Below, one piece after another: positions 18,170-48,574 of a DNA stretch of 64,000 bases. This DNA is from Candidatus Polarisedimenticolaceae bacterium (GTDB taxonomy: Bacteria; Acidobacteriota; Polarisedimenticolia; Polarisedimenticolales; DASRJG01): the NCBI GenBank assembly GCA_036275915.1, contig DASUCV010000022.1, positions 434,001-498,000 of the forward strand, given 5' to 3'. Every line of letters begins with the position of its first letter. Positions within the stretch are counted from its first letter, which is position 1. The position numbers and the translations under genes were made by a program. The notes under the pieces are model-generated. The model was not told the origin of the DNA and ran no database searches. It saw nothing but the letters and a program-made list of their open reading frames with translations.

Positions 18170-19609
18170 TCACGAAGTCGGGCGTCCCTCGTTAGTCCTT
18201 GGACCGTGGCCTGTCGGAGCCTGGGAGTCGCGGTAGGTCAGACCCGCCAAGTCGTGGGCGCCGTAATTGCCGGACGTCACTCCGATCCCGCCGGCAGGAG
18301 CGACCAGTCCCATTTTGAAATCTGTGTACGCCGCCCCACCATGTAGCAGTCGGATCGATTCTGCGACGACAAGACTTGCAGCGGCTGCGCCAACAAAAGG
18401 CACCGCGATCGCCTTTTCAGCGAGTTGGACGCGTCCGCACTCATCACCGTGGAGGCGCGCGTAGGCGGCACTCTCACGAGCTACGCGCGCTCGATGCTCC
18501 TGTTCTAGTGCGACTTCTTCTGGGGAGACGTCCGGCCAAAGTTCCACTGCTCTTCGGGGATTGGGAAGTGAATGGAGACTGATCGTGTCGAAGTTGCTGG
18601 TCATCCCTCCGAGCCCGCTCTCGATCACCCGCGTGAACTCGGCCGTGGCTAAGTGTCTACGCGCCGAGTTTGAGTCAAAACCGCACAACGCCAGCTGCGG
18701 CTCATCGGTGTGACAACGAAAGTCAGAATGGAACCGCCGCTCGATAATTCTGGTCTTGAATCCGCGTTGCTCCAGCCACGCACTGCAAACCCGCGTCTTG
18801 TACGAACCAACATTGTTAGTTCTGAAGATGAGGCTGGTTTCGAGATTCTCCGATGCGACCTTATCGAAATCGTTCAGGAAGAGCTCCATCGATCGCGGAT
18901 TTGCGTACGGCAAGGTGGCGAGCGCCCACAGATAGGCGTTCCCCAAGTGCCCCAAGCCCAGTACCCAGAGGTCGCCAGGTAGGAACTCCGCGGGAACCCC
19001 GAGCGCTGATGGGTCGCGAACGTCAGCGTCAGGCTGCCAGAGAGATAGCGCGACCGTACGTCGGCCCGCCTCGATGCAGAAATCGGCGAACGACAGGAAT
19101 ATCTCCGACATTGCGAGAGCGGCGGCAAGGATGCCAGAGACGGAGCAGTACTCCCGCTCGGTCAGGCGTTCCATCTCGCAAGCGGGACCGACCTTCGCAA
19201 TCCAGCCGTCGAACGTGACGCGGAGGGCCTTGATCGGCGGAACGGCGTTTCCGAAAACCACGGCGTGGCAACCCGGCTGGTAGCTCCCCAAGCCCGTCAA
19301 AGCCTTTGGCCCCAAGATGTTCATGAGCGCCTGGCCGAAGGTGAGGTTGAGCACAGGCCATAGCAACAGCGGCGTTTCCGCCAGATGTGCGTGAAGGGAG
19401 ACGCGCACGGCGCCGGGAAAGCAGCGCGTCGCGATGTTGGCAGCCGTCAGGACGGCGAGTTGCAGCGTGTACGAGGACGCCACGTCAGAGCCACACACTA
19501 GCGTGACGCCATGCGACTGCCGACGGGCGAGTGCGTCCTCCACGTTCATTTCATCGCGGTCGACGAACAACTTGGAGATGCGCGAGAGCTGGATGTCGGG
19601 CGTGGTCAT
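18170..19609 (-). CDS. E1-like ThiF-family activating enzyme of a ubiquitin-like cassette
   Basis: About 479 residues from ATG 19609 (MTTPDIQLSRIS), preceded by GGTGAG and 5 bp after the JAMM gene. E1/ThiF proteins adenylate the C terminus of a ubiquitin-like protein. The Rossmann nucleotide site is VLGLGHLGNAYLWAL near 240; acidic residues follow in LFLNDFDKV. LCGFDSNSARRHLATAEFTRV is the usual segment after the adenylation site. A Cys in DECGRV just before AVPFVGAAAASLVVAE is the best candidate for a thioester residue. The N-terminal 230 residues are a family-specific domain. It is the last gene of the four-gene operon. Confidence 0.85.
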   Translation of the reverse strand: MTTPDIQLSRISKLFVDRDEMNVEDALARRQSHGVTLVCGSDVASSYTLQLAVLTAANIATRCFPGAVRVSLHAHLAETPLLLWPVLNLTFGQALMNILGPKALTGLGSYQPGCHAVVFGNAVPPIKALRVTFDGWIAKVGPACEMERLTEREYCSVSGILAAALAMSEIFLSFADFCIEAGRRTVALSLWQPDADVRDPSALGVPAEFLPGDLWVLGLGHLGNAYLWALATLPYANPRSMELFLNDFDKVASENLETSLIFRTNNVGSYKTRVCSAWLEQRGFKTRIIERRFHSDFRCHTDEPQLALCGFDSNSARRHLATAEFTRVIESGLGGMTSNFDTISLHSLPNPRRAVELWPDVSPEEVALEQEHRARVARESAAYARLHGDECGRVQLAEKAIAVPFVGAAAASLVVAESIRLLHGGAAYTDFKMGLVAPAGGIGVTSGNYGAHDLAGLTYRDSQAPTGHGPRTNEGRPTS

Positions 19610-19614
19610 GCGTC

Positions 19615-20112
19615 TCACCAAAGAGTCAAGACCACCCGCCGTGTCTTGTCGCCCGGCGCGTGGGTTCGCCATTTGAAATCGCCGAGGTACTCATAGATGC
19701 CGACGCCGCTTAACGACCACGAACTCGTGCGAGCAAACTTCGGCACGATGATCGCGGTGTGACCGACGATCGGCATCATGGGGTTTCGCTGGTCGATCGA
19801 ACTCTGTCCGACGCCATCGCCGGGATGCGTGTGCACATCCGCGAGCACAGCGAGACCTTTTTCCCGGCAGTATTTCCAGAACGCGGCATATCCGTCTGCG
19901 TGGAAGGCGATGGCGCCCGCTTGATAGGCAACCGAATCGAGATCGTCGTAGCAGACGAACGTCGTGACGCGCGTGATTCTCCCTTGTTGGCGACCCAGCA
20001 AGAAGGCGCCGCTTTCGCGCCTGCCGCCTCCGCGTCGCCGCAATTGGAGAATCACCCGCATCCACGTCAGCCTGGGAATCTGAATCGTCGTGTCGGGGAC
20101 GCTAGACGCCAA
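19615..20112 (-). CDS. JAB1/MPN (JAMM) metallopeptidase of the ubiquitin-like cassette
   Basis: 165 residues from a TTG start overlapping the E2-like stop by 11 bases. The JAMM zinc site is complete: Glu in ESGAFLLG, HTHP, then S-x-x-D in SSID (HTHPGDGVGQSSID). JAMM peptidases cut after the C terminus of ubiquitin-like proteins, either to mature the precursor or to remove it from targets. In a cassette with Ubl, E2 and E1 it would be the processing or deconjugating enzyme. No transmembrane or signal region is seen. Confidence 0.9.
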   Translation of the reverse strand: MASSVPDTTIQIPRLTWMRVILQLRRRGGGRRESGAFLLGRQQGRITRVTTFVCYDDLDSVAYQAGAIAFHADGYAAFWKYCREKGLAVLADVHTHPGDGVGQSSIDQRNPMMPIVGHTAIIVPKFARTSSWSLSGVGIYEYLGDFKWRTHAPGDKTRRVVLTLW

Positions 20113-20593
20113 GGTAATCTCCGCTGTTCAGAAGTGCATGAAACTCCGCGAGGTAATCAGTGATTGTGTGGTCCGCGGTCCAAACCAGGTGCGGCTGCTC
20201 GGTGGTCCAATTCGGATGACTTTGAGCCGCGACCCGGTCGTATGGATGATAGAAAACGGTGTTGTTCCAGTCCGTCCGGAATACCTTGGCGAAGCGACTG
20301 TCCGGCTTCCCCTTCGGACGCCTGGCGAGATCGAGCGCAGCGTTGGTGGCGGGGTCCCAAAACGTACCCGTTGGTGCGACGGATCGATACCCGGCCGCGT
20401 CGAGCGAAAGATAGAAACGGTCCGGCGCGCCAGCGCGGGTCGCCGCCTCGATCCAGAAGATCACGCGTGGCCAAGTCAGATCGGTCGGCTGCATCTCTTT
20501 CTCGGGCCGGCCCCACCAGCCATTCAGCACGCCATTTCGGAAATCGGCCGACAAGAGGTCAGCTTGGAAGAGGCGTTGGTCAGGCTGCTCCAT
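20102..20593 (-). CDS. E2-like protein without any cysteine (ubiquitin-like cassette)
   Basis: About 163 residues from ATG 20593, 4 bp after the Ubl gene. The C-terminal half has an E2 layout: YRSVAPTGTFWDPAT, FRTDWNNTVFYHPYDR (105-120), then PHLVWTADHTITDYLAE and a helix ending LLNSGDY. In relatives I recall a Cys in P-C-D-R; here residue 118 is Tyr (PYDR), and the whole protein has no Cys. The nearest plausible nucleophile is Ser125 (AAQSHPNW). So either transfer runs through another residue, or the protein is a non-catalytic adaptor. Reading it as E2 depends on fold cues plus the neighbours. Confidence 0.75.
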   Translation of the reverse strand: MEQPDQRLFQADLLSADFRNGVLNGWWGRPEKEMQPTDLTWPRVIFWIEAATRAGAPDRFYLSLDAAGYRSVAPTGTFWDPATNAALDLARRPKGKPDSRFAKVFRTDWNNTVFYHPYDRVAAQSHPNWTTEQPHLVWTADHTITDYLAEFHALLNSGDYLGV

Positions 20594-20597
20594 GTGC

Positions 20598-21137
20598 TCA
20601 TCCCTGGGGCGTGACTTCCCGGACGAGGTTAAAGCAGATCGAGCAGACGGCCGCCTGCACGAGTTCGCCCAAGTGCCGATCGGCCCTCGGCCGCTCGGTG
20701 GAGTTGCAAAGCTGCAGAACGTATTCAGCGGCCGCGGCCGGGTCGAGGTGCAGCTTCCGGCGCGCCCATGTCGTGACGACCGCGATCGTCGTAGCCGGTG
20801 AAAAGCGGTGGCGCTTCGTCTGGCCGCTGAAATGGACCTCGACTGCGACGTGCCGGCACTTGTGGACGTGCACATGCCGGTGCCGCCTGAGATCGAGCTC
20901 TTCGAGCGTCAAATTGACGTCAGCCGGGTCGTGCTTGTCGACTCCGTCCTCGACGTCCTCCAGCTCGGTCAGCGCCTCACCGCACTCGCCCACGAAGACG
21001 TAAACTTCTCCCCCCTCGCCGGTGATGACCCCGGCCCGCACCAGCACCGTGCGGAGCGTTTCCGCTGCGGACCCCGTGGCGACCGTCGGTTTCGCGCCCT
21101 GTGCGTGAACGAACAATTCAACGTTCTGATCGGCCAT
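20598..21137 (-). CDS. Ubiquitin-like protein with two beta-grasp-like domains
   Basis: 179 residues; AAAGGTGA precedes the ATG. Domain 1 (about 4-60) opens with VELFVHAQGAKPTV and includes EVYVFVGE. Domain 2 (about 88-150) opens RHVAVEVHFSGQTKRHRFSP and continues through YVLQLCNSTERP to CSICFNLV, a paired-Cys end known in bacterial multi-ubiquitin proteins (DUF2604-like). The C terminus, EVTPQG, ends in Gly as a conjugating tail would, so processing may not be needed. It is the first gene of the cassette Ubl-E2-JAMM-E1, the order of the BilABCD antiphage operons. Confidence 0.78.
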   Translation of the reverse strand: MADQNVELFVHAQGAKPTVATGSAAETLRTVLVRAGVITGEGGEVYVFVGECGEALTELEDVEDGVDKHDPADVNLTLEELDLRRHRHVHVHKCRHVAVEVHFSGQTKRHRFSPATTIAVVTTWARRKLHLDPAAAAEYVLQLCNSTERPRADRHLGELVQAAVCSICFNLVREVTPQG

Positions 21138-21343: not shown

Positions 21344-21739
21344 ATGGCGCAGCCAGCACTCGGATTGCTGCTTAAGCGACTACGCGAAGAAAGAGGACTG
21401 TCGTTGCGCGAACTGGCGCAGTTCGCAGAAGTCGATCACGCGTACATCTATCGCTTGGAAGCCGGCGACAAGGAGTCCCCCTCAGAAGAAACGCTTTCAA
21501 AATTGATCCGCGCCTTGAAGGTCGTCGGCAAGCGCGAGGGGAATATGCTCCGATACATCGCGGAGCACAGCGACACAAACCCCGCCCTCGTGGCCTTCGT
21601 GCTCGACGACAAGACGATCACCTACGAGCTTTTCACCTCGGTGGCGGCGATCGCCTTCCGTGGCGCTGCCCGACCGGACTTGCCGAAGCTCTTCGAGCGG
21701 GTACGCAGAATTCTGGATGACGAGCATGGCACTCACTGA
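21344..21739 (+). CDS. XRE-family HTH regulator
   Basis: 131 residues with a strong AAGGAGGA ribosome site. The HTH (about 7-62) reads LLKRLREERGLSLRELAQFAEVDHAYIYRLE, a classic cro/C1 fold. The remainder is a helical tail. It overlaps the next gene by 14 bases and is divergent from the Ubl cassette. XRE plus ImmA/IrrE is a known derepression pair in mobile elements: the metallopeptidase cuts the repressor after damage or infection. I infer it controls the adjacent cassette. Confidence 0.88.
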   Translation: MAQPALGLLLKRLREERGLSLRELAQFAEVDHAYIYRLEAGDKESPSEETLSKLIRALKVVGKREGNMLRYIAEHSDTNPALVAFVLDDKTITYELFTSVAAIAFRGAARPDLPKLFERVRRILDDEHGTH

Positions 21740-22613
21740 ATTTGCAGTCGTTCATAAGGCGCGGAAGTTTGTCATCGACGTGAATCCGACCGCCATCCCG
21801 GTCTCGGTTGAGGACTACGCGCGTAGCGTTGGCGCCGTGATTCGCCCACAAACCGATCTCGGGCCCGACGAACCCGGCATGTCCTTCGCTCACGACGGCA
21901 AGCGATATATCTGTGTGAACGCCGGAGATCGTCCGGAGCGCCAGCGATTCACGGTATGTCACGAGGTCGCGCACATCGTCCTCGGGCTCCAGTCCGACCA
22001 CAGTGAACCGCAATGGAGTTACGCCAAGCGACCGCTCGCCGAGATCTTTTGCGACGTGTTCGCCGCAGAATTGCTTCTGCCGTACAAGTCGTTTCAACCC
22101 GCGGCGGTGGAATCGTCCACCGGGCTGGCCGCGGTGGACGCCTTGGCTGACCGGTTTCTCGCATCCACAACTGCAACCGGCTCCCGGTTTGCCAGCGTGG
22201 TCACGACGCCGTGCGCATTCGTGCTCTCCGAGCATGGGAAAATCAGATACGCATCGAGGTCCAAATCGCTGATCGACGCCAGCGCTTGGATTCCACCTCG
22301 GACTGATCTGCCGCGCGGTACCCTTTCACACAGGGCACACGCAGGCGGGCCGATGGATCGGGAAGAAGTTGACGCCGCTGTTTGGTTCAGCAATTGGGAA
22401 CGCGGCGGCAAGCTCCTCGAGGAAGCCAGGTATCTGGACCAGTGGGATCAGACCCTGACACTGCTATGGTTTGACGATGATGAAGTGCCACCGTTGAAGC
22501 GTCGTGCACGCGACGACGACGATGCCGTTGGCCTCCGAGAGGATGAGGAAGAACTCGGATTGCAGGAGCTAGATGGACATCTCCCTTGGCCTGGAAAGAA
22601 ACGCCGTAGGTAG
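21726..22613 (+). CDS. ImmA/IrrE-type zinc metallopeptidase
   Basis: 295 residues. The start at 21726 overlaps the XRE gene by 14 bases. The metalloprotease site is CHEVAHIVLGL (HExxH) near residue 79, with a distal Glu in AEIFCDVFAAELLLP. These proteins cleave XRE-type repressors. The C-terminal 100 residues are acidic and charged, ending in a basic tail, which is not part of the family core. Gene order and overlap support a functional pair with the upstream regulator. Confidence 0.88.
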   Translation: MALTEFAVVHKARKFVIDVNPTAIPVSVEDYARSVGAVIRPQTDLGPDEPGMSFAHDGKRYICVNAGDRPERQRFTVCHEVAHIVLGLQSDHSEPQWSYAKRPLAEIFCDVFAAELLLPYKSFQPAAVESSTGLAAVDALADRFLASTTATGSRFASVVTTPCAFVLSEHGKIRYASRSKSLIDASAWIPPRTDLPRGTLSHRAHAGGPMDREEVDAAVWFSNWERGGKLLEEARYLDQWDQTLTLLWFDDDEVPPLKRRARDDDDAVGLREDEEELGLQELDGHLPWPGKKRRR

Positions 22614-22858: not shown

Positions 22859-24241
22859 ATGGACCAATGGACTACGTTGATCAACATTCTTCGTCGTCTC
22901 ACCGGCCAAGACGCACCGCTGCCCGCTGATCGGTCGGCGAACCTCGCGGCGTTTTGCGCCGGCGGATCGCCCCTGGGATATAGCCAACTGAATGAGCTGC
23001 TTCTCCTCCTCGGATACGACCGCGTGAGTCAGACCTTCTTTCAATACCTCGTTGATGAGAGAACCGAGTACATCCCAGGGGCATTCATCAAGGACCTTGA
23101 CGCCCTTGAACGCGCCACAGAACGGCTGACGAAGCTGTCCCTTCTGCTGTATGGAAACACGAAGTTCGGCTTCAAGACCCTTTCAAGGGACCCAACTGAG
23201 CTCCGACGCGTGCTCAGCTACCTAGCACCTCTGCCAGAGGACGCGTTTCAGGCGAGAAACAATCCAATAACGCCGATTGAATTGGTTGATGCAGAGGACA
23301 CCCCGTATCTCGGATACATCATCCAAAGAGAGATTCGGGAGCGCCTTGCGGATCACCCGAACGATCCTGCAGCCCGAGAAGCGGAGACCAGGATGAATGC
23401 GGTGATGGCCGCAGGAAAAAGGAATCACGAATCCTATTTGGCCTCTGATCACCTTGATGTGTATGTGGCAACTTCGATGCGTCGACCTCAGGAGTACGTG
23501 GCCGTCAGCAAGCTGACGCAGGAGATCTTCAGCCATCCCGCGCTGACAGCCCTGAAGCTGCGGTGGTTTGATCCAACCCAGGCGTATTGCCCTCATCGAA
23601 TCGACAAGGGCTTATCAGAGGCTCTGATGTTGCGCAGGGCAACCTGCACGATCTATCTCGTCCAGGAATCCGATACCCTTGGCAAAGACTCAGAGCTTGC
23701 CTCGACTCTCGCTCAGGGTAAGCCGGTTATCGCGTTCGTCCCTTTGGTGGACGAAGCATATGTCGATGAAATACTTGCTGGCGCGGACGGTGAGAAGCGC
23801 AAGCGAATAATCCTTGAGCAACTTAGGCTGCTGAATCCCGGCTTGGCGTGGGTGGACGGCGACGTTCGACGGTGGCTGATCGATCCCGCCTCCTGGGACG
23901 AAGCGGCTGCGGGCGCGCTCCTCATCCATGAAATGCAAGCGCACTATGACCGCCGTGCCGAGACTTTGAAGGAGCATCACCCCCTCGGGATTCAGGTTGA
24001 TCTCGAATCAGGTGTCGCCAACGGCGTCTTGGTTGTTCGGACGGTCGACCAATGCGCACAGTTGGTGAAACGAATCATGACGAACTCGCTGGAGTTCACT
24101 GTCGAAACAATTCAGGAGGACGGCCAGGAGTACCTCCTGCTTCGTGAGCGAATTTCGAACTCAGTCTATCGCGTCATGACGGGTGACCGAATGTTGACAA
24201 ATGCGTTTTGGAACTACTACATCGATCAATTCACGGAGTAG
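22859..24241 (+). CDS. Uncharacterised protein with nucleoside deoxyribosyltransferase/TIR-like domain
   Basis: 460 residues, AAGGAT before the ATG. The N-terminal 180 residues are helical and unassigned. The middle (about 198-300) has LDVYVATSMRRPQEY, then LKLRWFDPTQAYC and KDSELASTLAQGKPVIAF. These features fit the flavodoxin-like fold shared by nucleoside 2-deoxyribosyltransferases and TIR proteins; the Glu in DSELA sits where the catalytic Glu of that fold lies. The C-terminal 130 residues, mixed alpha/beta, are unassigned. It may be a nucleotide- or NAD-cleaving defence effector. A 49-residue gene follows 6 bp later. Confidence 0.6.
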   Translation: MDQWTTLINILRRLTGQDAPLPADRSANLAAFCAGGSPLGYSQLNELLLLLGYDRVSQTFFQYLVDERTEYIPGAFIKDLDALERATERLTKLSLLLYGNTKFGFKTLSRDPTELRRVLSYLAPLPEDAFQARNNPITPIELVDAEDTPYLGYIIQREIRERLADHPNDPAAREAETRMNAVMAAGKRNHESYLASDHLDVYVATSMRRPQEYVAVSKLTQEIFSHPALTALKLRWFDPTQAYCPHRIDKGLSEALMLRRATCTIYLVQESDTLGKDSELASTLAQGKPVIAFVPLVDEAYVDEILAGADGEKRKRIILEQLRLLNPGLAWVDGDVRRWLIDPASWDEAAAGALLIHEMQAHYDRRAETLKEHHPLGIQVDLESGVANGVLVVRTVDQCAQLVKRIMTNSLEFTVETIQEDGQEYLLLRERISNSVYRVMTGDRMLTNAFWNYYIDQFTE

Positions 24242-24532: not shown

Positions 24533-25870
24533 ATGGGCCGGGGATCGGGTAACGGACACCGATTGACTTCTGCTGAGCGGCTGGAATTGCAGCGTCGAGA
24601 TCGGTCCGGTGAGACGCACCAGTCTGCCGCTGTGGCCATCGGGTGTTCCGCGAAGTCGGTGCAGCGCCTTCTGGTGAAGACAGGAGGGTTGATGCCGAGA
24701 GTGACACCACAGTCACCGCTGCGTCTGTCGCTTTCTGAGCGGGAGGAGATTTCGCGTGGCCTCCTTGCTGGCGAGTCGTGCCGCCGGATCGCCGCTCGGC
24801 TGGGCCGGTCGTCATCGACCGTGTCACGAGAAGTCTCGGCCGGTGGTCGTAGAGTTCGGTATCGAGCTTGGCGGGCTGAGGAGCGCGCTCGCCGGCGAGT
24901 GCGCCGACCGAAGACCGCCAAGCTGGCGGCGTCGCCTAGGCTTCGACGTGAGGTAGAGCGGTGGCTCGCTTTGCGGTGGTCGCCTCAACAGATCGCGGCG
25001 AGATTGGTCCACGACTACCCCGACGATCTGGAGATGCGCGTGTCGCACGAGACGATCTATCAATCACTGTTTGTGCAGGGCCGCGGGGCCTTACGCAAGG
25101 AACTCACTCGCTGTCTGCGCACAGGACGAGCCCAACGACGGACACGCGGACGCGCCATCGGCGGTGGTCATTTGACAGACATGGTGCTGATCAGTGATCG
25201 ACCCGCTGAGGTAGCAGACCGAGCGGTGCCGGGTCACTGGGAAGGCGACCTGATTGTCGGTAAGAATGGAAAGTCCGCCATCGGGACGTTGGTGGAACGA
25301 CAGACCCGGTTCGTCATGCTGATGAATCTCAGCAAGGGTCGCCTTGCTATTCATGTCAGGAATGCGTTGGCAGACAAGGTCCGTGATCTCCCCGAGCAGC
25401 TGCGGCGATCGTTGACTTGGGATCGCGGCAAGGAGATGGGCGAGCACGTTCGATTCACCGTCGCTACCGGCGTACAGGTTTACTTCTGCGATCCGCGGAG
25501 CCCCTGGCAACGGGCGACAAACGAAAACAGCAATGGTCTGTTGCGCCAGTATTTTCCCAAGGGCACAGACCTGACGGTGGACAACCAGAGGCAATTGGAC
25601 GCGATCGCCGCCGAGCTCAACGGGCGGCCTCGACAGACACTGGGATGGATGACACCTTCAGAAGCGTTTTCCCGCGTTGGTGCGATGACCGCATTGGAGT
25701 TCCCAGGATTCACTGGAGACGCCGTCGGGCCGATTTCTGATCCGTTTCGAACCGCTCGGGGCTCACGCCGCCCAGATGACCATGACGGCGAGTGGGATTG
25801 TAGAACCCATCGATGTAGTCAGCGACATCCTTCAGCGCGAGCTCCCGGCTCTTGTAGATGTGTTTCTTGA
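24533..25870 (+). CDS. IS30-family transposase, C terminus overrun by an IS3 element
   Basis: The ATG at 24533 follows GAGGAGGT. The N-terminal HTH region has LSLSEREEISRGLLAGESCRRIA; the DDE core has HWEGDLIVGKNGKSAIGTLVERQTR, LTWDRGKEM and NENSNGLLRQYFPKG, with the usual PSEAF end. The true transposase stops making sense near 25694, where the left inverted repeat of an IS3 element begins. The remaining 58 codons are read-through into that element and are not part of a normal protein. The left end of IS30 lies between 24398 and 24532 but could not be fixed. Function is doubtful. Confidence 0.85.
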   Translation: MGRGSGNGHRLTSAERLELQRRDRSGETHQSAAVAIGCSAKSVQRLLVKTGGLMPRVTPQSPLRLSLSEREEISRGLLAGESCRRIAARLGRSSSTVSREVSAGGRRVRYRAWRAEERARRRVRRPKTAKLAASPRLRREVERWLALRWSPQQIAARLVHDYPDDLEMRVSHETIYQSLFVQGRGALRKELTRCLRTGRAQRRTRGRAIGGGHLTDMVLISDRPAEVADRAVPGHWEGDLIVGKNGKSAIGTLVERQTRFVMLMNLSKGRLAIHVRNALADKVRDLPEQLRRSLTWDRGKEMGEHVRFTVATGVQVYFCDPRSPWQRATNENSNGLLRQYFPKGTDLTVDNQRQLDAIAAELNGRPRQTLGWMTPSEAFSRVGAMTALEFPGFTGDAVGPISDPFRTARGSRRPDDHDGEWDCRTHRCSQRHPSARAPGSCRCVS

Positions 25871-26673
25871 TCCGTTCCTTCTTCAGACTGCTGAAGAATG
25901 ACTCAGCCACGGCGTTGTCCCAACAGTTCCCCTTACGGCTCATGCTTGGCTCGAGGTGGTTGGAGCGGCAGAATCGACGCCACGCGTCGCTCCCGTACTG
26001 GGAACCTTGATCCGAATGAATCAGCGTGCCTCTTGGTCGTCGTCGGCGTACAGCCATCAGCACCGCATCGAGAATAAGTTCACGACGGATGGTGGGACTT
26101 GCAGACCAGCCGACGATCTTGCGCGAGAATAGATCCATGACGACCGCGAGATAAAGCCAGCCCTGCCATGTCCGAATGTACGTGATATCCGTGACCCAGG
26201 CCTTGTTGGGGCGTGTGACCGTAAACCGTCGCTGCAGGATGTTTGGGATCAATACCGCCGGTTTTCCAACGGACCAGCGCCGGATCAGCCGTGAAGCGCA
26301 CGAAGGTTGTTCACCCGCATGAGGCGAGCGACGCGATGCTTGCTGCACGTCTCGCCTGCCTCCCGCAGATCCAGGAAGATTCGTGGAGCGCCGTAGACTC
26401 CGTGACTTGCGGTAAAGGCAGCGCGGATCAGGCGAAGAAGTCTCGCATCCTCCTGGGCTCGATTGGAAATCGGCTGCTTGAGCCATTCGTAGTAGCCGCT
26501 CTGGGCGACTTCGAGGATGCGGCACATCGACTGAACGTCGTATCGGTCTCGGTGTGCCTTGATGAACTCATAGGTCGATCGAACTCGCCCAATACGGAAT
26601 CGCGTGGACATCGGCTTTGACCTCTCGTGCTATCCCGATGCTAACGCGCCTCCACCAAATCCTGGGAACTCCA
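25695..26673 (-). mobile_element. IS3-family element, internally decayed
   Basis: Terminal inverted repeats TGGAGTTCCCAGGATT are identical for 16 bases at both ends (25695 rightwards, 26673 leftwards) and then partly match (TGGAG). The 979-bp length is short for IS3. The orfA HTH gene is missing, since only 60 bp separate the right repeat from orfB. Target-site duplication is not evident: different sequence flanks each side, IS30 on the left and a DUF2971 remnant on the right. That points to a later deletion or rearrangement. Confidence 0.8.
25710..26611 (-). pseudogene. IS3 orfB transposase, frameshifted
   Basis: The N-terminal part (26611 to about 26285) reads MCRILEVAQSGYYEW and HGVYGAPRIFLDLRE, the HTH_21 region. 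The integrase core continues in another frame (PNKAWVTDITYIRTWQGW, LIHSDQGSQYGSD, RKGNCWDNAVAESFFSSLK), complete with DDE residues, to 25710. The frame break lies near 26290-26310. In intact IS3 elements orfB is reached by frameshift from orfA; here the break is inside orfB and orfA is absent, so it is inactive. Confidence 0.82.
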
Positions 26674-26839: not shown

Positions 26840-28174
26840 CTACTGTTTCGGAGCGCTTCGAGTAGATCGTCGCTTACTTCGAAAGCGTTCTCCTCGGTAC
26901 TGGCTACTCGCAAAACGCTTCACGATTCCTGCTTCTGAGAATTTCTCGGCGATGACGTGCGGGTCGTCGTGAGTACGCGTCGCAGCCAGGGAACGAGCGA
27001 TGAGTGCCTCCAGCTCGACGACAGCATTCCGGGGCGGTCTGCACCGTCGCGGGTTGCTCGGGAGATTCAACACCCACTTCATGAATCGATCCGGCTCAGA
27101 CAGATTCGGCCAGACACCCCACTCTGCGATACCACGCACAAGCATCGAGCGATGTGCTTGAGGTAGCCAAGCGCTTTCTTCCGAGAGGAGCCATATGAGG
27201 TAGTCGAAAGTTTCGTAGAACTTCGGGCATGGACCGCCGACATCCCCCTGAACGAATTGACAGGCCGCTCGGACCGCATCAATGGAGTCCGGATCGGTCA
27301 CCCGCAGCGCCCACGCGTCGTCGCCGGGGTCCTTGGTCATCGCTTCGTCAAAGAGCGTCTCCATCTCACCGCTGAGGCCCGGAATAGTGAGTTGAGGAGC
27401 GTAGCTCGCAAGCCAACTCGGGAACCGATGACACGATTCCTCGAGCCCCGGCATTTCTTTCACGAAGGCGAGCACGTCACACGGGTCCGAGATCTGGGTG
27501 ATCCGTCTGGCTTCCGCTTGCTCCACCCAGCGGAGCTGCAGTGCAGTCCACGCGAGGCGCACTCCCCGGTCCCCACCACGAGAACTGTGGTTCGGGAGCG
27601 GGAATGCCCAGCGCCCCCAACAGACCTCGTCAGGAACGTGAAAACCCACGGGTAGCATCCGATTGCTTGCCTCGATGATATCGAGCCACCATTCGTCCGA
27701 AATCACAGGCGGTGAAACGCCAAACGCGATCAACTCATCGCGGGCTACTACTAGCGGGCTCTCCTGTGGGCGCACAACGCGAAGAATCTCCCGACACACG
27801 GCCGGGATCCCGTCATCCGTCGAGACCGCGACCAGATCGGCCAATGGGCTGGAAAACTCAAGTACATCATCACGTGACACCTTGTGCCAAATCGGGATGA
27901 TCACCCGCTCGTCGCCCCTCATTTGGCGAGCGACGAGCCCGTTCAGTTCCCACTGCGGCCACCGCTTTGAAAAGAACGCCTCGCTGAGCACCACGAGTCC
28001 GTGTCGACTTCTTGCCAGCCCTCTATCTATCGATTCGCGAAGGCTGTCGCCAAGTCGCAAGGAGAACTCGTCGTACCAGACTTCAATGTGCTGGCTGGCG
28101 AGGGCAGTCGCCAGCGGGCGGGCAATCTCGTCCTTATCCTCGGAAGCGTGGCAAATGAATACGTCGTAGAGCAA
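26840..28174 (-). CDS. TIR-domain protein
   Basis: 444 residues. The N-terminal TIR domain (1-140) has YDVFICHASEDK, DEFSLRLGDSLRESIDRGL and WPQWELNGL; Glu76 in that last motif is in the position of the catalytic Glu of NAD-cleaving TIRs. The C-terminal 300 residues are helical and tryptophan-rich, with no recognised domain. The family pattern (TIR plus unknown sensor) suits an antiphage or interference effector that depletes NAD. A 169-residue gene lies 12 bp upstream on the same strand and is probably co-transcribed. Confidence 0.88.
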   Translation of the reverse strand: MLYDVFICHASEDKDEIARPLATALASQHIEVWYDEFSLRLGDSLRESIDRGLARSRHGLVVLSEAFFSKRWPQWELNGLVARQMRGDERVIIPIWHKVSRDDVLEFSSPLADLVAVSTDDGIPAVCREILRVVRPQESPLVVARDELIAFGVSPPVISDEWWLDIIEASNRMLPVGFHVPDEVCWGRWAFPLPNHSSRGGDRGVRLAWTALQLRWVEQAEARRITQISDPCDVLAFVKEMPGLEESCHRFPSWLASYAPQLTIPGLSGEMETLFDEAMTKDPGDDAWALRVTDPDSIDAVRAACQFVQGDVGGPCPKFYETFDYLIWLLSEESAWLPQAHRSMLVRGIAEWGVWPNLSEPDRFMKWVLNLPSNPRRCRPPRNAVVELEALIARSLAATRTHDDPHVIAEKFSEAGIVKRFASSQYRGERFRSKRRSTRSAPKQ

Positions 28175-36924: not shown

Positions 36925-37596
36925 CTACGGCCGAGAATTGTCTCTTAACCGCTTGAGACTTTCTAAACTATGGGCCGCCTGCTCTCGCCCAATTCTGCTA
37001 CGGTAGCGTTTGACCAGAGCCCAGTGGCACCGAGCGAGGCGCTCTCCTGATCCGCAGGGACACGGGACGTGGCCTTTGATTTTCTTCGGCACTAGACACT
37101 CGGTGAATGCGATCGCCCGATCAAGGCTTTCAGTGCAAAAGATCCCCTCGTAGTACTGGGCGAGCCCTTCATGTCCATGGGCCCATTCGCCGAACGGCCA
37201 CGGACGACCGGCAGCCACTTCGATTTGACCTAGGAACCAGGTTCGGATGGGACCGTCTAGGAACTGTCGGAATGAACTTCCGATAGGCCAGACGCGCCAC
37301 CGCTCGTCAGGTACGAAGAGGCAGGCCTCGCCGGTCTCCCGATTCACATGCGCATTAGCGATGTGGGGAATTCGGCCGGCGACTTCGAATACCTGCGGCA
37401 GGCCCTTGGGATAGTTGAGAGGGAACTTGATTTTGACGGCGAAACTGCCGTGAACCACTCCCTCGAAAACCACGGGGAAACCACCGACCACTTCGGGCTC
37501 ACCGGTTGTGCTTGTCTCAAGCCGAAGTGTTGGGTACGCGCGGAGGCTCTCCCTAATATCCTCCAGTAGAGCCGGCGTACGCTCGAACCACCGCAT
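36925..37596 (-). CDS. CBASS E2-like protein with C-terminal SEC-C zinc motif
   Basis: About 223 residues. ATG 37596 overlaps the CD-NTase stop as TAATG; a GTG six codons earlier is possible. The E2 core has FPLNYPKGLPQVFEV, a His-Val-Asn loop and Cys92 in GEACLF where the E2 nucleophile lies. The last 45 residues hold HVPCPCGSGERLARCHW, a SEC-C zinc finger that recruits or binds partners. E2 proteins without a dedicated E1 mark type II-short CBASS, where they are linked to priming the CD-NTase. Here an E1 stands three genes upstream. Confidence 0.82.
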   Translation of the reverse strand: MRWFERTPALLEDIRESLRAYPTLRLETSTTGEPEVVGGFPVVFEGVVHGSFAVKIKFPLNYPKGLPQVFEVAGRIPHIANAHVNRETGEACLFVPDERWRVWPIGSSFRQFLDGPIRTWFLGQIEVAAGRPWPFGEWAHGHEGLAQYYEGIFCTESLDRAIAFTECLVPKKIKGHVPCPCGSGERLARCHWALVKRYRSRIGREQAAHSLESLKRLRDNSRP

Positions 37597-38507
37597 TACA
37601 CCGACGGAGTCCACGGCTTGGTCGGTGTAGCGACTGCGGCTGCCGCTCTCTTCAGAATCTCTGGACCCCGACTCCCCTTGTCTCCTGGATCAGGGAGCTT
37701 GCCGAAGACGGCCTCCCAACCGGAATTACCAAGGATGGAAAGCGTGGTCTGTGCCACAGCAGACAAGGTGGCCTTGACCCCGGCATCAAGCAATCCTGAC
37801 AGGTCGTTTCCGTTTGGGTTAGCAGGATCCTCGATGGACAACTTTGCGCTTCGATCTCGGAATTCCGTCCAGACGTGAACCAATTGATCTGCAAGTCCAC
37901 TCTTCGTCTTGGAGGAAAGGAGGTCAATGACCAAGAGCTCGAGACCGAAGTGCTTGATGGAGAGTCCGTTACGGTAACGCCACAGCTTCAAAAGGCGGAT
38001 CGCTGGCACAACACCACTGCCCTTCACGTGTGTGATATGGGTCGAGAGGTTGGTCTTAAGGCGCTCACCCTCAACCCCGTTCTGGTACAGCCAGGCATCT
38101 CCGCCCTTCTCATCGATGTAGCGACCAGGTACGGCATCGATGTGGAAGTCCTGCTTGTAGTTCTCCGCGTCCTTGCCCCGAAGCCGCAGAGCGGACGGCT
38201 TCTTATCCACGTAATAGTCGTCTTCGAGCGCCTTAGCAACATTCTCGTAGATTGCCTTCAGGGTCTCGCCGGCGCTCGTATCATCGTGCGGGAAGTAGCA
38301 GATGACGTCGAGGTCGTACGCTTCACGGATCATCGTGCCCTTCGCCATCGAGCCGCCGTACTGAATCGTAGGCGAGCACTTCGGAAAAGCCTTGCGCACG
38401 ATTCCTTCAACGGCCTTGCGGTGATCCTCCAAGGCGACGAGCTCCGAGCTCTTGGGGGCAAGGGTCTGATCCTCAAGCACTGCACTCAAATATTCGTTAG
38501 GTTCCAT
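37596..38507 (-). CDS. CD-NTase (CBASS cyclic-oligonucleotide synthase)
   Basis: 303 residues. The polymerase-beta-type active site is complete: GGSMAKGT (GS at 52-53), D65 and D67 in YDLDVICYF and a third Asp in DFHIDAVPG (D124). This places it in the CD-NTase family that makes cyclic di- or trinucleotides after infection. The C terminus has the usual PAIRLLKLWRYRNG helix and ends near the E2 gene. It overlaps the Cap5 gene by 11 bases, so both are translated together. Product identity needs clade assignment. Confidence 0.9.
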   Translation of the reverse strand: MEPNEYLSAVLEDQTLAPKSSELVALEDHRKAVEGIVRKAFPKCSPTIQYGGSMAKGTMIREAYDLDVICYFPHDDTSAGETLKAIYENVAKALEDDYYVDKKPSALRLRGKDAENYKQDFHIDAVPGRYIDEKGGDAWLYQNGVEGERLKTNLSTHITHVKGSGVVPAIRLLKLWRYRNGLSIKHFGLELLVIDLLSSKTKSGLADQLVHVWTEFRDRSAKLSIEDPANPNGNDLSGLLDAGVKATLSAVAQTTLSILGNSGWEAVFGKLPDPGDKGSRGPEILKRAAAAVATPTKPWTPSV

Positions 38508-39660
38508 GTTCGTTTACCTTAATTGTTTCAATATATCCGTCACCCGTCCGGTTCCGGTCCCAGATGACAAGAGTCGGGTCAACTCGGGGCATCAGATCGA
38601 GCCCTAGAGCGACGGCCACTGGTGCTGGTACCGCTGGGACAATGTGGATCTGACGAGTAGTTGGACGATCGCGTCCTACGTCGCCCCGCAGGAAAGCCTG
38701 GTACGTCCGGCGAAAATTCGCAAGAGTAACTCGAGATCCTAAGATCGTTGGATCAGCGTCCGCCCCTTCAAGAGCAATCTCATATACGGGAGCATCAGCC
38801 AGACCATCGGGAAGCTGGGATAGATGAACCTTACCGCTGAGAGAAAGCACCAGGACCACCCTCATGGTATCTGATCCATCGCGCAGGAGCCGCGTCGACG
38901 TCGAGAGACTCGGTGCATCGTTCTTCCAGCTCCAGCTCTGTGTGTCTCGGTGACGCTGGAAAAGCTCAATAGGAAGCTTGTTGCTGAGCTTGGATCCGAG
39001 GTAAACAAGCAGCGGAATGGGTCCCAGCGCAAATACCGCGAGCTGCTGAATCGGAGCCGCTCGTCGGAGCAAAGCACCACTACTATCGCCGATGAGTCGG
39101 GTAGCCGTCTCCCAGTATGCCGGGTCTGCGTAATCTGGTAACCGAGTTAGATCAATGGTTTCAATGTCACGGGTGATGTACCAAGGCGAGACTGCCGACT
39201 GCATCTGAGCCCGAGTAACCTGCACCGGTTGACGGTCGATTAGCGCCTTCAGGACTAGAGCGGTCGACTCGCGGTCGGGGCGCGTCTCAGTCAATTCCCA
39301 GACCCGATCCTCGTGAGCCTTCTTGAAGTCTCGAAGGACTGGGACCGGATAGCGTACGGGCTCCCTGTCAATCAAAGTATGGCAAGCTCCGCAGAGCAGC
39401 ATGAGATTATCGAGTGCGTTCACAGCCACGGGATCCATCGCAGCGTCGCCACGCGGGCCTTCAGGGCTGAAGGCGAAGATGTGTGCCATTTCCGCAAAGT
39501 TGCCTGGGATTCCCGTAACCGGATGCTCTAGGAGATACCGATTGCATCCGTCGAACTCGCATCGACCACCTGCCTGCACATAGAGGTATAGCCGCACTGG
39601 ACCGCTGATCCCACGAGCACGTCTTACTGGACTAGTGGTGGCTTGTTTGCGTACTGCCAT
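38497..39660 (-). CDS. cap5: Cap5: HNH nuclease with SAVED domain (CBASS effector)
   Basis: 387 residues. The N-terminal HNH nuclease (about 30-100) has CEFDGCN, EMAHIFAF with His60, LDNLMLLCGACHTLID with Asn85, Cys90 and Cys93. The C-terminal SAVED domain (about 170-387) shows LAVFALGPIPLLVYLGSKLS and SWSWKNDAPS. In characterised Cap5 a cyclic nucleotide binds SAVED, triggers assembly and activates double-strand DNA cleavage, killing the infected cell. It overlaps the CD-NTase gene and is followed by the E2 gene. Confidence 0.9.
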   Translation of the reverse strand: MAVRKQATTSPVRRARGISGPVRLYLYVQAGGRCEFDGCNRYLLEHPVTGIPGNFAEMAHIFAFSPEGPRGDAAMDPVAVNALDNLMLLCGACHTLIDREPVRYPVPVLRDFKKAHEDRVWELTETRPDRESTALVLKALIDRQPVQVTRAQMQSAVSPWYITRDIETIDLTRLPDYADPAYWETATRLIGDSSGALLRRAAPIQQLAVFALGPIPLLVYLGSKLSNKLPIELFQRHRDTQSWSWKNDAPSLSTSTRLLRDGSDTMRVVLVLSLSGKVHLSQLPDGLADAPVYEIALEGADADPTILGSRVTLANFRRTYQAFLRGDVGRDRPTTRQIHIVPAVPAPVAVALGLDLMPRVDPTLVIWDRNRTGDGYIETIKVNEHGT

Positions 39661-39725
39661 AAGGCTGCGTCATTTTCTCGCGTCAACTTCGGCTTGTTAA
39701 TGGATTGCCTATCGCGATGCGACCG

Positions 39726-40070
39726 CTATCGTCTGCCACGCTCCGTTCTAGTACCTCGGGGCTTCTTCCTGTTCCGTTCGATTTCCCTCTTCGACCACTG
39801 ACGCGCCCAGACGACCCGGTTCCTTCGTATCCAATAGTGCGACTGACACGGGAAGCTCCAATTTCCAATTGACGGCTGAAGCGAAATAGTCTGCCCGTCG
39901 TAGTTCAGGTTCCAGTCTGTGGGGCTTAGAGGAGTCACAACCTGACTTCCACATCCACAGCAGCATCTGTGAATCGCGGTTGCGAACTCCACAGAGACGT
40001 AAACAATCCCGGATTCAAGGTCGTCTGGGATGAAGTGCACGAATTGATGTGTCATCTGATTCAGCTTCAT
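39726..40070 (-). CDS. DUF6527 protein of a ubiquitin-like module
   Basis: 114 residues, ATGA overlap with the ThiF gene. The core is VHFIPDDLESGIVYVSVEFA, a cysteine cluster CCCGCG, TPLSPTDWNLNYDG and a His/Trp-rich FPCQSHYWIRR, matching DUF6527. The cysteines suggest a zinc site. DUF6527 genes usually follow a multiubiquitin gene and an E1-like gene, so it should be a processing or regulatory component. The C-terminal 30 residues are arginine-rich. Confidence 0.82.
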   Translation of the reverse strand: MKLNQMTHQFVHFIPDDLESGIVYVSVEFATAIHRCCCGCGSQVVTPLSPTDWNLNYDGQTISLQPSIGNWSFPCQSHYWIRRNRVVWARQWSKREIERNRKKPRGTRTERGRR

Positions 40071-41245
40071 ACGTGGTCGTCGCTATCCAAGACGTTAGTG
40101 TTGATGACGTACGTCGAGTCGTGCTCCCGTTCGAAGTCGAGGTAGAAGCCGCAGAGTTTCTTCCACTTGATTACTGCGATGCAGGCATTCATCGCGTTCA
40201 AGTCCGCGATCTGAATATTCCGTTCGTACTCCGCGTTTGCTGTTGGAGCGGCTATCGGTACACGGCTTCGGAAGTGATCGCGTTTCGTCGGTGTACTCGT
40301 AGTCACTCGCAGCATGCCGCGCAATGAGTCCTCTACGAGTTCTACGCCCATGCCCGTATCGATGAAAGTGATGTTGGTATCTTCGAGATGGTCGACGACA
40401 GCAACCTTCGGATCTCCTGGGTCCATGCACAAGAATACACAGTCCATCAGTTCCAATTCCGAAACGTTGTCGGCGGTGATGTCGTACTCGTGCGGAATGA
40501 TCCCTCGGTGCAACTTCGAATAGATCTCCTTGAAGTGACCGACTTTCGACTCACGCGTCTCCAGCTCGGCTCTCGACACAGCTCCAGGCGCCCTGAAAGC
40601 GTTGTGCGTTAAGAACCGATCCGCGTCGAAGAGATGAATCTCTTTCACGTGAGTCTTCGCTACCAAATCAAGGATGTATGATCCCGTGCCGCCGAGCCCC
40701 AGTATCGCGAGGCGCTTTGATTCTAGTTTGCTTGCCGGAAGACCAATGCCAGCCCTACTCGTCGCGGTATCCACGTACTCGAAGACTGACTCATCAGGAT
40801 CGGTGGGGATCACGGGAAACGTCTGGGCTGTCGCGTTGGCATCGATCGCTTGCGCGGGACTCGTGAAGATGTTCACATACGTGGTCATCTTCTGGTAATA
40901 GTCCGCGTAGTCGACTCCTCCATGTAATTTGCATGAAAACGAGTGATTCACTTCCAACTCTGGACTGAGCCTCTGAGTTCCCCCACTCACGAGCTTCTCC
41001 ATTGGCACACCATCTTTGCTACATGGGAGCTCGCCAACGAACATCGCTTGGTGGTTGCCAGGAGCTACCGTGATTTCACCCGCGGTCTTTAGCTCGGATA
41101 CGAGAATCCCTAGCTTCACCTCCTTGTTGGAGTTTACATACGGAACATCCTTGATCAGAAGATAGCCCGACCGAACCTCGACGTCGTAGCCTTCATCCCG
41201 CAGCTTCTTTAGGTCAGGACTACGATTTATCAGTTGCTGTGACAT
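40067..41245 (-). CDS. ThiF-type E1-like protein with N-terminal DUF6791-like domain
   Basis: 392 residues. The C-terminal half has the ATP-binding loop LGLGGTGSYILDLVAK, LFDADRF and a later Asp-rich strand, as in ThiF and E1 enzymes. The N-terminal 150 residues (NHSFSCKLHGGVDYADYYQK, with a Cys) match the DUF6791 domain that I take to be E2-like; the protein would then be an E1/E2 fusion. It overlaps the multiubiquitin gene by 26 bases and the DUF6527 gene by four, so the three genes are a translation-coupled unit. Confidence 0.82.
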   Translation of the reverse strand: MSQQLINRSPDLKKLRDEGYDVEVRSGYLLIKDVPYVNSNKEVKLGILVSELKTAGEITVAPGNHQAMFVGELPCSKDGVPMEKLVSGGTQRLSPELEVNHSFSCKLHGGVDYADYYQKMTTYVNIFTSPAQAIDANATAQTFPVIPTDPDESVFEYVDTATSRAGIGLPASKLESKRLAILGLGGTGSYILDLVAKTHVKEIHLFDADRFLTHNAFRAPGAVSRAELETRESKVGHFKEIYSKLHRGIIPHEYDITADNVSELELMDCVFLCMDPGDPKVAVVDHLEDTNITFIDTGMGVELVEDSLRGMLRVTTSTPTKRDHFRSRVPIAAPTANAEYERNIQIADLNAMNACIAVIKWKKLCGFYLDFEREHDSTYVINTNVLDSDDHV

Positions 41246-41492
41246 CGAAGATCATGCCTTCCTTCACCTTCACCGGCTCACCACCAGGCACGAGCGTTCC
41301 GTGCTTGTTCCCTTCGGCCCGGCTATACTTCACGGTGATGACAACGCCCGGTCCTGACGGTGGGTTGTTGTCGTAGGCTAGGTTCACCACCCTCTCGTAG
41401 GTGAGCTCCTCGTTCTTGGGTACCTGCTTTTCGCGGCCGTTGACAATGATGGTAACGGTCTGCGTTTGTGATGTAGTGTTTGTAGTATTCAT
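41220..41492 (-). CDS. Multiubiquitin-domain protein
   Basis: 90 residues; AGGAAGG precedes the ATG at 41492. One Multi_ubiq-type beta-grasp domain: VTIIVNGREKQVPKNEELTY at the start, VNLAYDNNPPSGPGVVITVK in the middle and VKEGMIFDVTATDKS at the end. The protein ends in Ser, not Gly-Gly, as usual for this family, so conjugation through its C terminus would need processing or another chemistry. It is the first gene of the six-gene operon and has the best start signal. Confidence 0.88.
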   Translation of the reverse strand: MNTTNTTSQTQTVTIIVNGREKQVPKNEELTYERVVNLAYDNNPPSGPGVVITVKYSRAEGNKHGTLVPGGEPVKVKEGMIFDVTATDKS

Positions 41493-41510
41493 GGTGTCCT
41501 TCCTCACTAG

Positions 41511-47488: not shown

Positions 47489-48574
47489 TCATCGACCTGT
47501 TGGGAGATTCGGCGGCCGGTACTCGACGACCAGCCGCATCCTCTCAGCCACGGCGGGGTTGACTTCCGCATCATCGGGGACGTAACGATGCCGTCCCGCA
47601 TGAATCATCCAACGTCTCGCGAAGTTCCGGACCGGGTCCTGATACGGCTTAGGGACGAACTCTAGAATCCACCACAGCCCGCGAAGGGACTCATGGATCT
47701 TGGCGTCGGCCCGCGGCGCCGCACGGTCCTTCGTATCCTGCTCGGGCAGGATCCGCGCCTTCGCGCTCGCGTCAACGTGCAAGCCGGCGGCCTGCGCTTC
47801 TCCGGCCATCCACTGGAGCCCGATCTTCGAAAGGCCAGAGTCTTTCTCCAGGTATCCTCCGCCGACGTCGCAGTGAACGCCGGGGAACCACATTTCGAGC
47901 ACGTCTTGATCCTCTCGCTTCTGATCGGTCCAACGATTCTGCGGGAAGTGAGCGCGGCGTTCGTCGAGGGCGATCGCGTGGCGGACGATCTCGACGCTGG
48001 GGTTGTCGCGTGTGAACTGAAGCGATTCTGGATTCCAAATCCAACCGATGGATCTAACAGTATCCCAAAGCCCGAGAAAATGGAGAGGGACGGTCCGCGC
48101 GAAGGTCTTCTTGAAGCCCGCCGCCTCTCCCCAATCGTCCTTCCTCTTGTAGGTATCCCAGGCAAATGGAATGAGCTCCTCGTTGCCGCGGGTAAGGAGG
48201 CCGACTTTGTGGATCATCCCCGCGAGCGCACGAGCCGTGTAAGCACCGCGGCTGAACCCGAACAGGAAGATCGAATCCCCTGGTTCGTAAGTCCGCATTA
48301 GGAAGCGGTAGGCGTCGCATACGTGCTGCTCGAGAAGCCATGCGATCGCAAGATCGAGACGAGCGACGATCAGCCGCCCGAGTGTATTCCAGATGCTGGG
48401 CGGGGGCATCGTTCCGATGCCCGGCTGATAGTACGAGAGCTGATCGGAGCGATCGCGGTCAAGCATTTCATAAAGCTTGACGACGTTGGTCTTGTCGCGG
48501 GCGTACTTATTGCTCGTTCCGTCGAGGCAGACGGCAATTCTCCGCCCGACGCCGACCGGCGCTGCATTGGTCAT
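47489..48574 (-). CDS. DUF2235 alpha/beta-hydrolase (Tle1-like phospholipase fold)
   Basis: 361 residues. IAVCLDGTSNKYARDKTNVV opens the domain; GFSRGAYTARALAGM holds the GxSxG nucleophile (Ser108), and FPGVHCDVGGGYLEKD holds the His/Asp region of DUF2235. Members include type VI secretion phospholipase effectors (Tle1), which hydrolyse membrane lipids. No secretion genes are nearby and no signal peptide is visible, so it would act inside the cell unless delivered by another route. It is third from the middle of the nine-gene operon. Confidence 0.87.
   Translation of the reverse strand: MTNAAPVGVGRRIAVCLDGTSNKYARDKTNVVKLYEMLDRDRSDQLSYYQPGIGTMPPPSIWNTLGRLIVARLDLAIAWLLEQHVCDAYRFLMRTYEPGDSIFLFGFSRGAYTARALAGMIHKVGLLTRGNEELIPFAWDTYKRKDDWGEAAGFKKTFARTVPLHFLGLWDTVRSIGWIWNPESLQFTRDNPSVEIVRHAIALDERRAHFPQNRWTDQKREDQDVLEMWFPGVHCDVGGGYLEKDSGLSKIGLQWMAGEAQAAGLHVDASAKARILPEQDTKDRAAPRADAKIHESLRGLWWILEFVPKPYQDPVRNFARRWMIHAGRHRYVPDDAEVNPAVAERMRLVVEYRPPNLPTGR

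Follow-up and report, generated by a model that had tools for sequence, protein, structure and literature searches.

A cysteine-free E2-like protein in a Bil-type operon of a Candidatus Polarisedimenticolaceae bacterium

Introduction

Textbook ubiquitination requires a cysteine on the E2. In bacteria, the Bil system is an anti-phage, ISG15-like system for which E1-E2-Ubl and Ubl-protease complexes have been solved (8tyx, 8tyz and 8tz0; PMC11354881). There, Cys417 of the E1, BilD, is the residue that receives the modifier BilA, and the catalytic cysteine of the E2, BilB, is Cys138 within a CEHH motif (PMC11354881). An E2-like domain without a cysteine was predicted in 2006 in a different bacterial Ubl/E1/JAB cluster, the polyUbl operons (type 6e), where the domain is RWD-like and was proposed to bind the modifier (Iyer et al. 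2006, PMC1779556). The polyUbl components belong to other families: a Multi_ubiq Ubl, an E1 that is often fused to JAB and a metal-binding protein. For another bacterial E2 type, a conserved histidine downstream of the cysteine was proposed in the same year as the residue that completes the active site (PMC1779556).

Here we describe a Bil-type operon in a stretch of 64,000 nucleotides (hereafter the window) from a Candidatus Polarisedimenticolaceae bacterium of the Acidobacteriota. Its E2-like protein, like the polyUbl domain, has no cysteine; none of the BilABCD proteins of the window matched the Pfam models of the polyUbl type 6e parts.

Results and Discussion

Organization of the operon

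Four tightly packed genes on the minus strand encode, in order, a Ubl, an E2-like protein, a JAMM protease and an E1 (Table 1), the order also found in Bil operons. The initial annotation had placed a cysteine-free E2-like protein between the Ubl and JAMM genes, and the uninterrupted translation of 20593..20102 (163 aa, no Cys) bears this out. The start of bilC is read as TTG, which, if right, gives an overlap of about 10 bases with bilB. The start of bilD is the ATG at 19609, a longer alternative from 19672 being less likely.

Proteins matching BilA, BilB, BilC and BilD (PADLOC) are all encoded in this single operon. The Ubl has two beta-grasp domains and a C-terminal Gly, the E1 has a nucleotide-binding motif and the aligned catalytic Cys, and the protease has the JAMM residues E, HxH and SxxD. 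The catalytic Cys of the E2 is not there; Tyr118 is found instead. Because the E2 cysteine is missing while the other Bil hallmarks that could be tested are in place, we class the operon as a divergent Bil-type operon and not as canonical Bil. It is probably a functional Bil variant, predicted to tag proteins.

Bub (bacterial ubiquitination-like) operons are noncanonical and use oxyester chemistry. Like the window operon they combine Ubl, E1, E2 and protease genes, often beside CapW or CapH/CapP, a likeness drawn here from their description only. The initial annotation had suggested that the window operon belongs to a reported group of bacterial ubiquitination-like pathways that lack canonical residues, taken here to be Bub (named in PMC13373217 and PMC12687455). 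This assignment was not upheld: the four genes match Bil models at 9e-47 to 7e-138, in libraries in which no Bub model was identified.

A capH and capP pair adjoins bilA. The start of capP is uncertain (21717 or 21726), the frame being open from 21660. The pair also lies beside the operon in five related loci (L001-L005), and HTH and ImmA/IrrE genes are annotated upstream of the operon on plasmids of Mesorhizobium and Paraburkholderia. CapH/CapP are described as DNA-damage-responsive controllers of neighboring immune operons (PMC13373217), and we infer that the window operon is probably under DNA-damage control through them.

Table 1. Features of the window. Tyr clade and Cys clade refer to BilB proteins with Tyr or Cys in column 118 and to their operons.
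Feature	Position	Strand	Evidence or remark
bilA, Ubl modifier, two beta-grasp domains, TPQG end	20598..21137	-	PADLOC BilA 9e-47
bilB, Cys-less E2-like protein, 163 aa	20102..20593	-	Pfam DUF7665 9.8e-35; PADLOC BilB 5e-49
bilC, JAMM/JAB protease	19615..20112	-	PADLOC BilC 3.4e-59; Pfam Prok-JAB 2.5e-6; 8tyx_B 1.3e-5
bilD, E1-like adenylating enzyme, 479 aa	18170..19609	-	PADLOC BilD 7e-138; Pfam ThiF
capH, HTH repressor, divergent from operon	21344..21739	+	PADLOC capH 4.2e-14
capP, IrrE/M78 metallopeptidase	21726..22613	+	PADLOC capP 1.9e-53; Peptidase_M78 2.4e-15
BilB Tyr118 codon, TAC	20240..20242	-	column is Cys in PCDR-type BilB; Tyr 8/8 Tyr clade, Cys 18/18 Cys clade
BilB His116 codon	20246..20248	-	invariant in Tyr clade; Leu/Ile in Cys clade
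BilB His126 codon	20216..20218	-	invariant in 35/35 E2-like proteins aligned
BilB Asp146 codon	20156..20158	-	invariant in Tyr clade; mostly Gln/His in Cys clade
E1 Cys391 codon	18437..18439	-	aligns with catalytic Cys417 of solved BilD 8tyz_A, via L072
460-aa protein	22859-24241	+	no Pfam or PADLOC match
IS-like transposase gene	24533-25870		translation read
IS-like transposase gene	25710-26525		translation read
TIR-domain protein	26840-28174	-	ThsB-type models PADLOC 2e-32; Pfam TIR_2 1.6e-20
Second Ubl locus	37596-41507	-	five genes below
CD-NTase-like cyclase	37596-38507	-	
SAVED-HNH effector	38497-39660	-	
DUF6527	39726-40070	-	
DUF6791-ThiF E1	40067-41245	-	
Multi_ubiq Ubl	41220-41507	-	
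T6SS Tle1-like phospholipase effector domain protein	47489-48574	-	Pfam 1.9e-84

The BilB protein and its fold

Absence of cysteine by itself is weak evidence, as a protein of 163 aa can easily lack one and two relatives (L027, L033) are likewise cysteine-free. What gives the cysteine-free BilB its significance is the alignment. Tyr118 of the PYDR motif (residues 117-120) and Ser125 lie where the initial annotation had put them. A longer E2 frame from 20875, which would add a cysteine, was rejected; the added stretch lies over bilA in a different frame, and the match to the BilB model already begins at residue 2 of the 163-aa protein.

A predicted structure of BilB (pLDDT 84.8) has the UBC fold. 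By VIA the model gave Z 10.1 to human UBCi (1zuo), 9.9 to bacterial BilB (8tz0_C) and 8.4-9.5 to many eukaryotic E2s and UEVs, including Mms2 (8.9). The Foldseek E-value was modest (0.026 to 8tyz_C), and a sequence search of the PDB returned nothing above chance for BilB, singly or as a profile. The model was built from ten sequences, and its lowest confidence falls on the active-site loop, residues 111-130 (pLDDT 59-72). No relatives of BilB were found in viral contigs.

Column 118 across the BilB family

We aligned 32 DUF7665-type BilB proteins from Ubl/E2/JAMM/E1 loci with three more distant E2-like proteins; one locus, cut before its Ubl, was excluded from the counts for column 118. Among the 32, this column held Cys in 18, Tyr in eight and Trp in three, with single proteins showing Met, Leu or Ala. 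Several searches were seeded with the window protein, so the sample is biased towards it and these numbers are no measure of how frequent Tyr is in the family. The three distant proteins have Gln in column 118 and Cys in column 115. The PCDR motif that the initial annotation ascribed to related proteins is thus real, with Cys in that very column in 18 of 32 homologues from the same gene context, and the alignment of same-order cassettes that it proposed showed Tyr118 to be fixed in its own clade.

The Tyr clade consists of the window, L001-L005 (Acidobacteriota MAGs and one Silicimonas MAG) and two complete plasmids, of Mesorhizobium sp. AR02 (L023) and Paraburkholderia caffeinilytica (L024), and so spans Acidobacteriota, Alpha- and Betaproteobacteria. 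It forms one well-supported clade in both the E1 tree (SH-aLRT 100) and the E2 tree (96). No cysteine elsewhere is conserved among its BilB proteins: three (L003, L005, L024) have one near 157-158 and L023 has one at 44, and the window protein, L001, L002 and L004 have none anywhere. The Trp clade is also supported in both trees (97 and 98). This second cysteine-free branch (L035, L061, L062) reads YRPW[DE]R, and its E1 Cys and JAMM motifs are intact. At least two changes (E2 tree) to four (E1 tree) between Cys and non-Cys are needed in column 118, and a single clade of all 14 non-Cys E1s was not rejected (p-AU 0.23). We therefore claim neither many independent losses nor a direction, loss or gain, for Cys118.

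All eight Tyr-clade proteins have Tyr118 at pairwise identities of 39-75%, written with both TAC and TAT, and dN/dS was roughly 0.1-0.3 where dS, which is near saturation, could be estimated. These results argue that the gene is maintained and Tyr118 constrained. TAC and TGC are one base apart, and a true codon of TGC or TGT would have made the tyrosine a sequencing or assembly error. Its likelihood is negligible, being refuted by the agreement of eight separate records, two of them the complete plasmids, by synonymous codon changes and by purifying selection. The window BilB is neither a sequencing error nor a product of decay.

Six positions of the E2 are invariant in the Tyr clade and occur at most once in the Cys clade: Lys94, Phe114, His116, Tyr118, Thr143 and Asp146. 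Phe114, His116 and Tyr118 alternate within one segment, FYHPYDR. The PCDR-type proteins (L007-L009, L025-L031, L067 and others), which are about 30-42% identical to the window BilB and come from the same kind of operon, have Leu114, Leu/Ile116, Cys118 and Gly143 instead, and their Ubl ends in R-[IV]-[NE]-G or similar instead of TPQG. Trp27, Tyr115, Asp119, Arg120, His126 and Trp138 are invariant and common to both, and in the family as a whole Asp119 (one Glu), Arg120 and His126 are retained irrespective of Cys118. Two single frames, L078:3-932 (-) and L077:1397-2674 (+), apparently fuse a BilA-like Ubl to a BilB-like E2 domain; the active-site segment of the former is YSGFDR, without Cys, and that of the latter is not recognizable.

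Is Cys118 the catalytic cysteine?

To say that the window BilB lacks the catalytic cysteine presupposes that Cys118 is catalytic in PCDR-type proteins. This is probably so as judged from the alignment, and the invariance of Cys118 in 18 relatives indicates that it matters there. In the solved BilB (8tyz_C), Cys138 lies within FLCMAGVREYH, five residues ahead of an Arg, and six distant proteins (L065, L066, L070, L071, L073, L076) have a Cys at about the same distance. Cys118 is only two residues before Arg120; counted from this conserved Arg, the solved cysteine is three residues earlier, and the profile alignment puts a gap here. Either the loops may differ in length or the cysteine may have shifted by three residues.

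The residue five before Arg120 in DUF7665 proteins is Tyr115. It is invariant in all 32 and, counted from Arg, sits where distant E2s carry Cys, which would make it a candidate nucleophile in BilB. However, Tyr115 is also present in every Cys118 protein, which suggests a structural role. The serine favored by the initial annotation for oxyester chemistry fares no better, because Ser125 is not conserved: its column reads Ser in three, Gly in three, Glu in one and Asn in one of the Tyr clade and is Gly in 17 of 18 Cys proteins. A nucleophile at either Tyr115 or Ser125 is therefore very unlikely.

Partner proteins

The remainder of the cassette keeps its motifs, as had been claimed from the start. 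BilD retains GLGxxG, and the best PDB match of the E1 profile is the E1 (BilD) of 8tyz_A. In the alignment, Cys391 falls on the CG motif containing Cys417 of the solved enzyme. It is the sole cysteine of the window E1 conserved in every operon, being retained in 35 of 35 (Tyr 8/8, Cys 18/18, other non-Cys 6/6, distant 3/3). Twenty E1 positions are invariant in the Tyr clade with at most one occurrence in the Cys clade. Cys63 and Cys155 of BilD are among these positions, fixed in the Tyr clade and very rare outside it.

BilC contains HTHPGDGVGQSSID and ESGA, and the JAMM residues E, HxH and SxxD were found in 14 of 14 non-Cys operons. The predicted BilA (pLDDT 85.5) resembles ISG15 and linear di-ubiquitin, its C-terminal domain resembling BilA 8tyx_A (Z 10.4). 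While several other BilA proteins extend a few residues past the Gly, all eight of the Tyr clade end exactly in TPQG. Since these already end in Gly, the JAMM protease would not be needed for BilA maturation in this clade; removal of BilA from targets is the likelier reason for which the protease is retained.

An E2 without Cys might mean that protein conjugation has been lost, the E1 and Ubl being reused in a thiocarboxylate sulfur carrier, in acylation of nucleotides or small molecules, or in a non-covalent assembly; BilB would then be left as a structural remnant. ThiF/MoeB-like E1 enzymes can indeed work in sulfur transfer (PMC12355090), but the window E1 matches BilD far better (7e-138 vs 0.006 for ThiF/MoeB), BilB is under purifying selection, and the JAMM active site and the modifier Gly are kept in all eight Tyr-clade operons. 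We regard such a loss as quite improbable.

How BilB may act

The explanation we favor, and to which we give roughly even chances, is that of a functional BilABCD-type conjugation operon whose last covalent intermediate is the thioester E1~BilA, with BilB working as a UEV-like E2 that forms no thioester with the modifier. BilD would adenylate the Gly end of BilA and load BilA onto Cys391. BilB would then dock on E1~BilA and the target, aligning a direct transfer from the E1 thioester that might be aided by His126 and Asp119-Arg120 of BilB, and BilC would take the BilA tag off again; we infer each of these chemical steps. This explanation is favored because the four Bil genes match strongly, Tyr118 is fixed under purifying selection with the UBC fold kept, His126, Asp119 and Arg120 persist with or without Cys118, and the JAMM protease is kept though BilA already ends in Gly. 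Among the options that the initial annotation had listed, direct E1-to-target transfer with an adaptor role for BilB thus fits best.

UEVs such as Mms2/UBE2V and Tsg101 share with BilB a UBC fold without a catalytic Cys. The analogy is functional only: UEVs work together with a catalytic E2 partner, and three family searches of this genome, one of them weak, returned none. Archaeal SAMP/UbaA and Urm1/Uba4 transfer a Ubl to proteins without an E2 thioester, yet unlike the window operon they have no E2-like subunit. Two observations sit less easily with a UEV-like BilB. The cysteine of the solved BilB is three residues earlier than Cys118 relative to Arg, and the joint clade-specificity of His116, Tyr118 and Asp146 may point to a catalytic site that has been rebuilt, beyond a mere surface for binding.

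Tyr118 itself could accordingly be considered as the nucleophile, the strongest of the competing options and one that the initial annotation had overlooked. BilA would move from Cys391 of the E1 to the phenol oxygen of Tyr118, forming an aryl ester, and then to a target amine, with His116 and possibly Asp146 assisting. Aryl esters are far better acyl donors than Ser or Thr esters. The fixation of Tyr118 across 39-75% identity with both codons speaks for such an ester, as do His116 and Asp146, present in every Tyr-clade protein and missing from the Cys clade, and the alternation of Phe114, His116 and Tyr118. However, a joint change at 114, 116 and 118 would also fit a rebuilt interface, the active-site loop is modeled with the least confidence, and we know of no E2 that employs Tyr. 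Where column 118 holds Trp, Met, Leu or Ala, none of which can carry an acyl group, the operons retain the same E1 and JAMM motifs, and for this reason an adaptor-type BilB is preferred. A tyrosine ester appears unlikely on present evidence but worth testing, given the clade-specific His116, Tyr118 and Asp146.

Other genes in the window

The second Ubl locus adjoins CBASS genes. Its DUF6527, DUF6791-ThiF and Multi_ubiq genes, identified by Pfam models, resemble the polyUbl operon type of PMC1779556. DUF6791-ThiF was also found in the genomes of two Tyr-clade relatives. This locus bears on the idea that another E2-fold protein of the cell provides the cysteine in trans, BilB pairing with it in the way that the UEV Mms2 pairs with Ubc13. 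Pseudo-E2/E2 pairs of this kind are known in eukaryotes, and the second Ubl locus, 17 kb from the Bil operon, includes an E1. Against it, no second BilB-family protein was found in this genome or those of four relatives (L001, L003-L005), this genome gave no Prok-E2_B or UQ_con match (the Prok-E2_B search, which matched nowhere, being weak), and the DUF6791-ThiF gene was present in only three of five Tyr-clade genomes searched. We consider a cysteine in trans highly improbable; both it and the loss of conjugation are less likely than a UEV-like or a Tyr-ester BilB.

The TIR-domain gene near the Bil operon is likely a defense gene, judging from its model matches. The 460-aa protein lies just past CapP, with the two IS-like transposase genes beside it. 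A T6SS phospholipase effector domain protein is encoded further along (Table 1).

Significance

We know of no experiments on any cysteine-free BilB, and our literature search, which covered the smaller part of the Bil work, found no description of one, so its novelty is tentative. Cysteine-free E2-like domains had already been predicted in other bacterial Ubl operons (PMC1779556); it is the Bil-type case that appears to be new. A whole branch of Bil has fixed a non-Cys residue in the E2, yet keeps the E1, the modifier and the protease, while related operons retain the Cys. In operons of the Tyr clade, the chemistry by which the tag reaches its targets is probably different. If BilB did form a tyrosine ester, it would be an E2 that holds its Ubl on Tyr while the E1 still uses a thioester. 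The two kinds of operon are a natural comparison pair for asking whether proteins can be tagged without an E2 thioester, and the comparison may show whether the E2 fold can position a Ubl rather than carry it.
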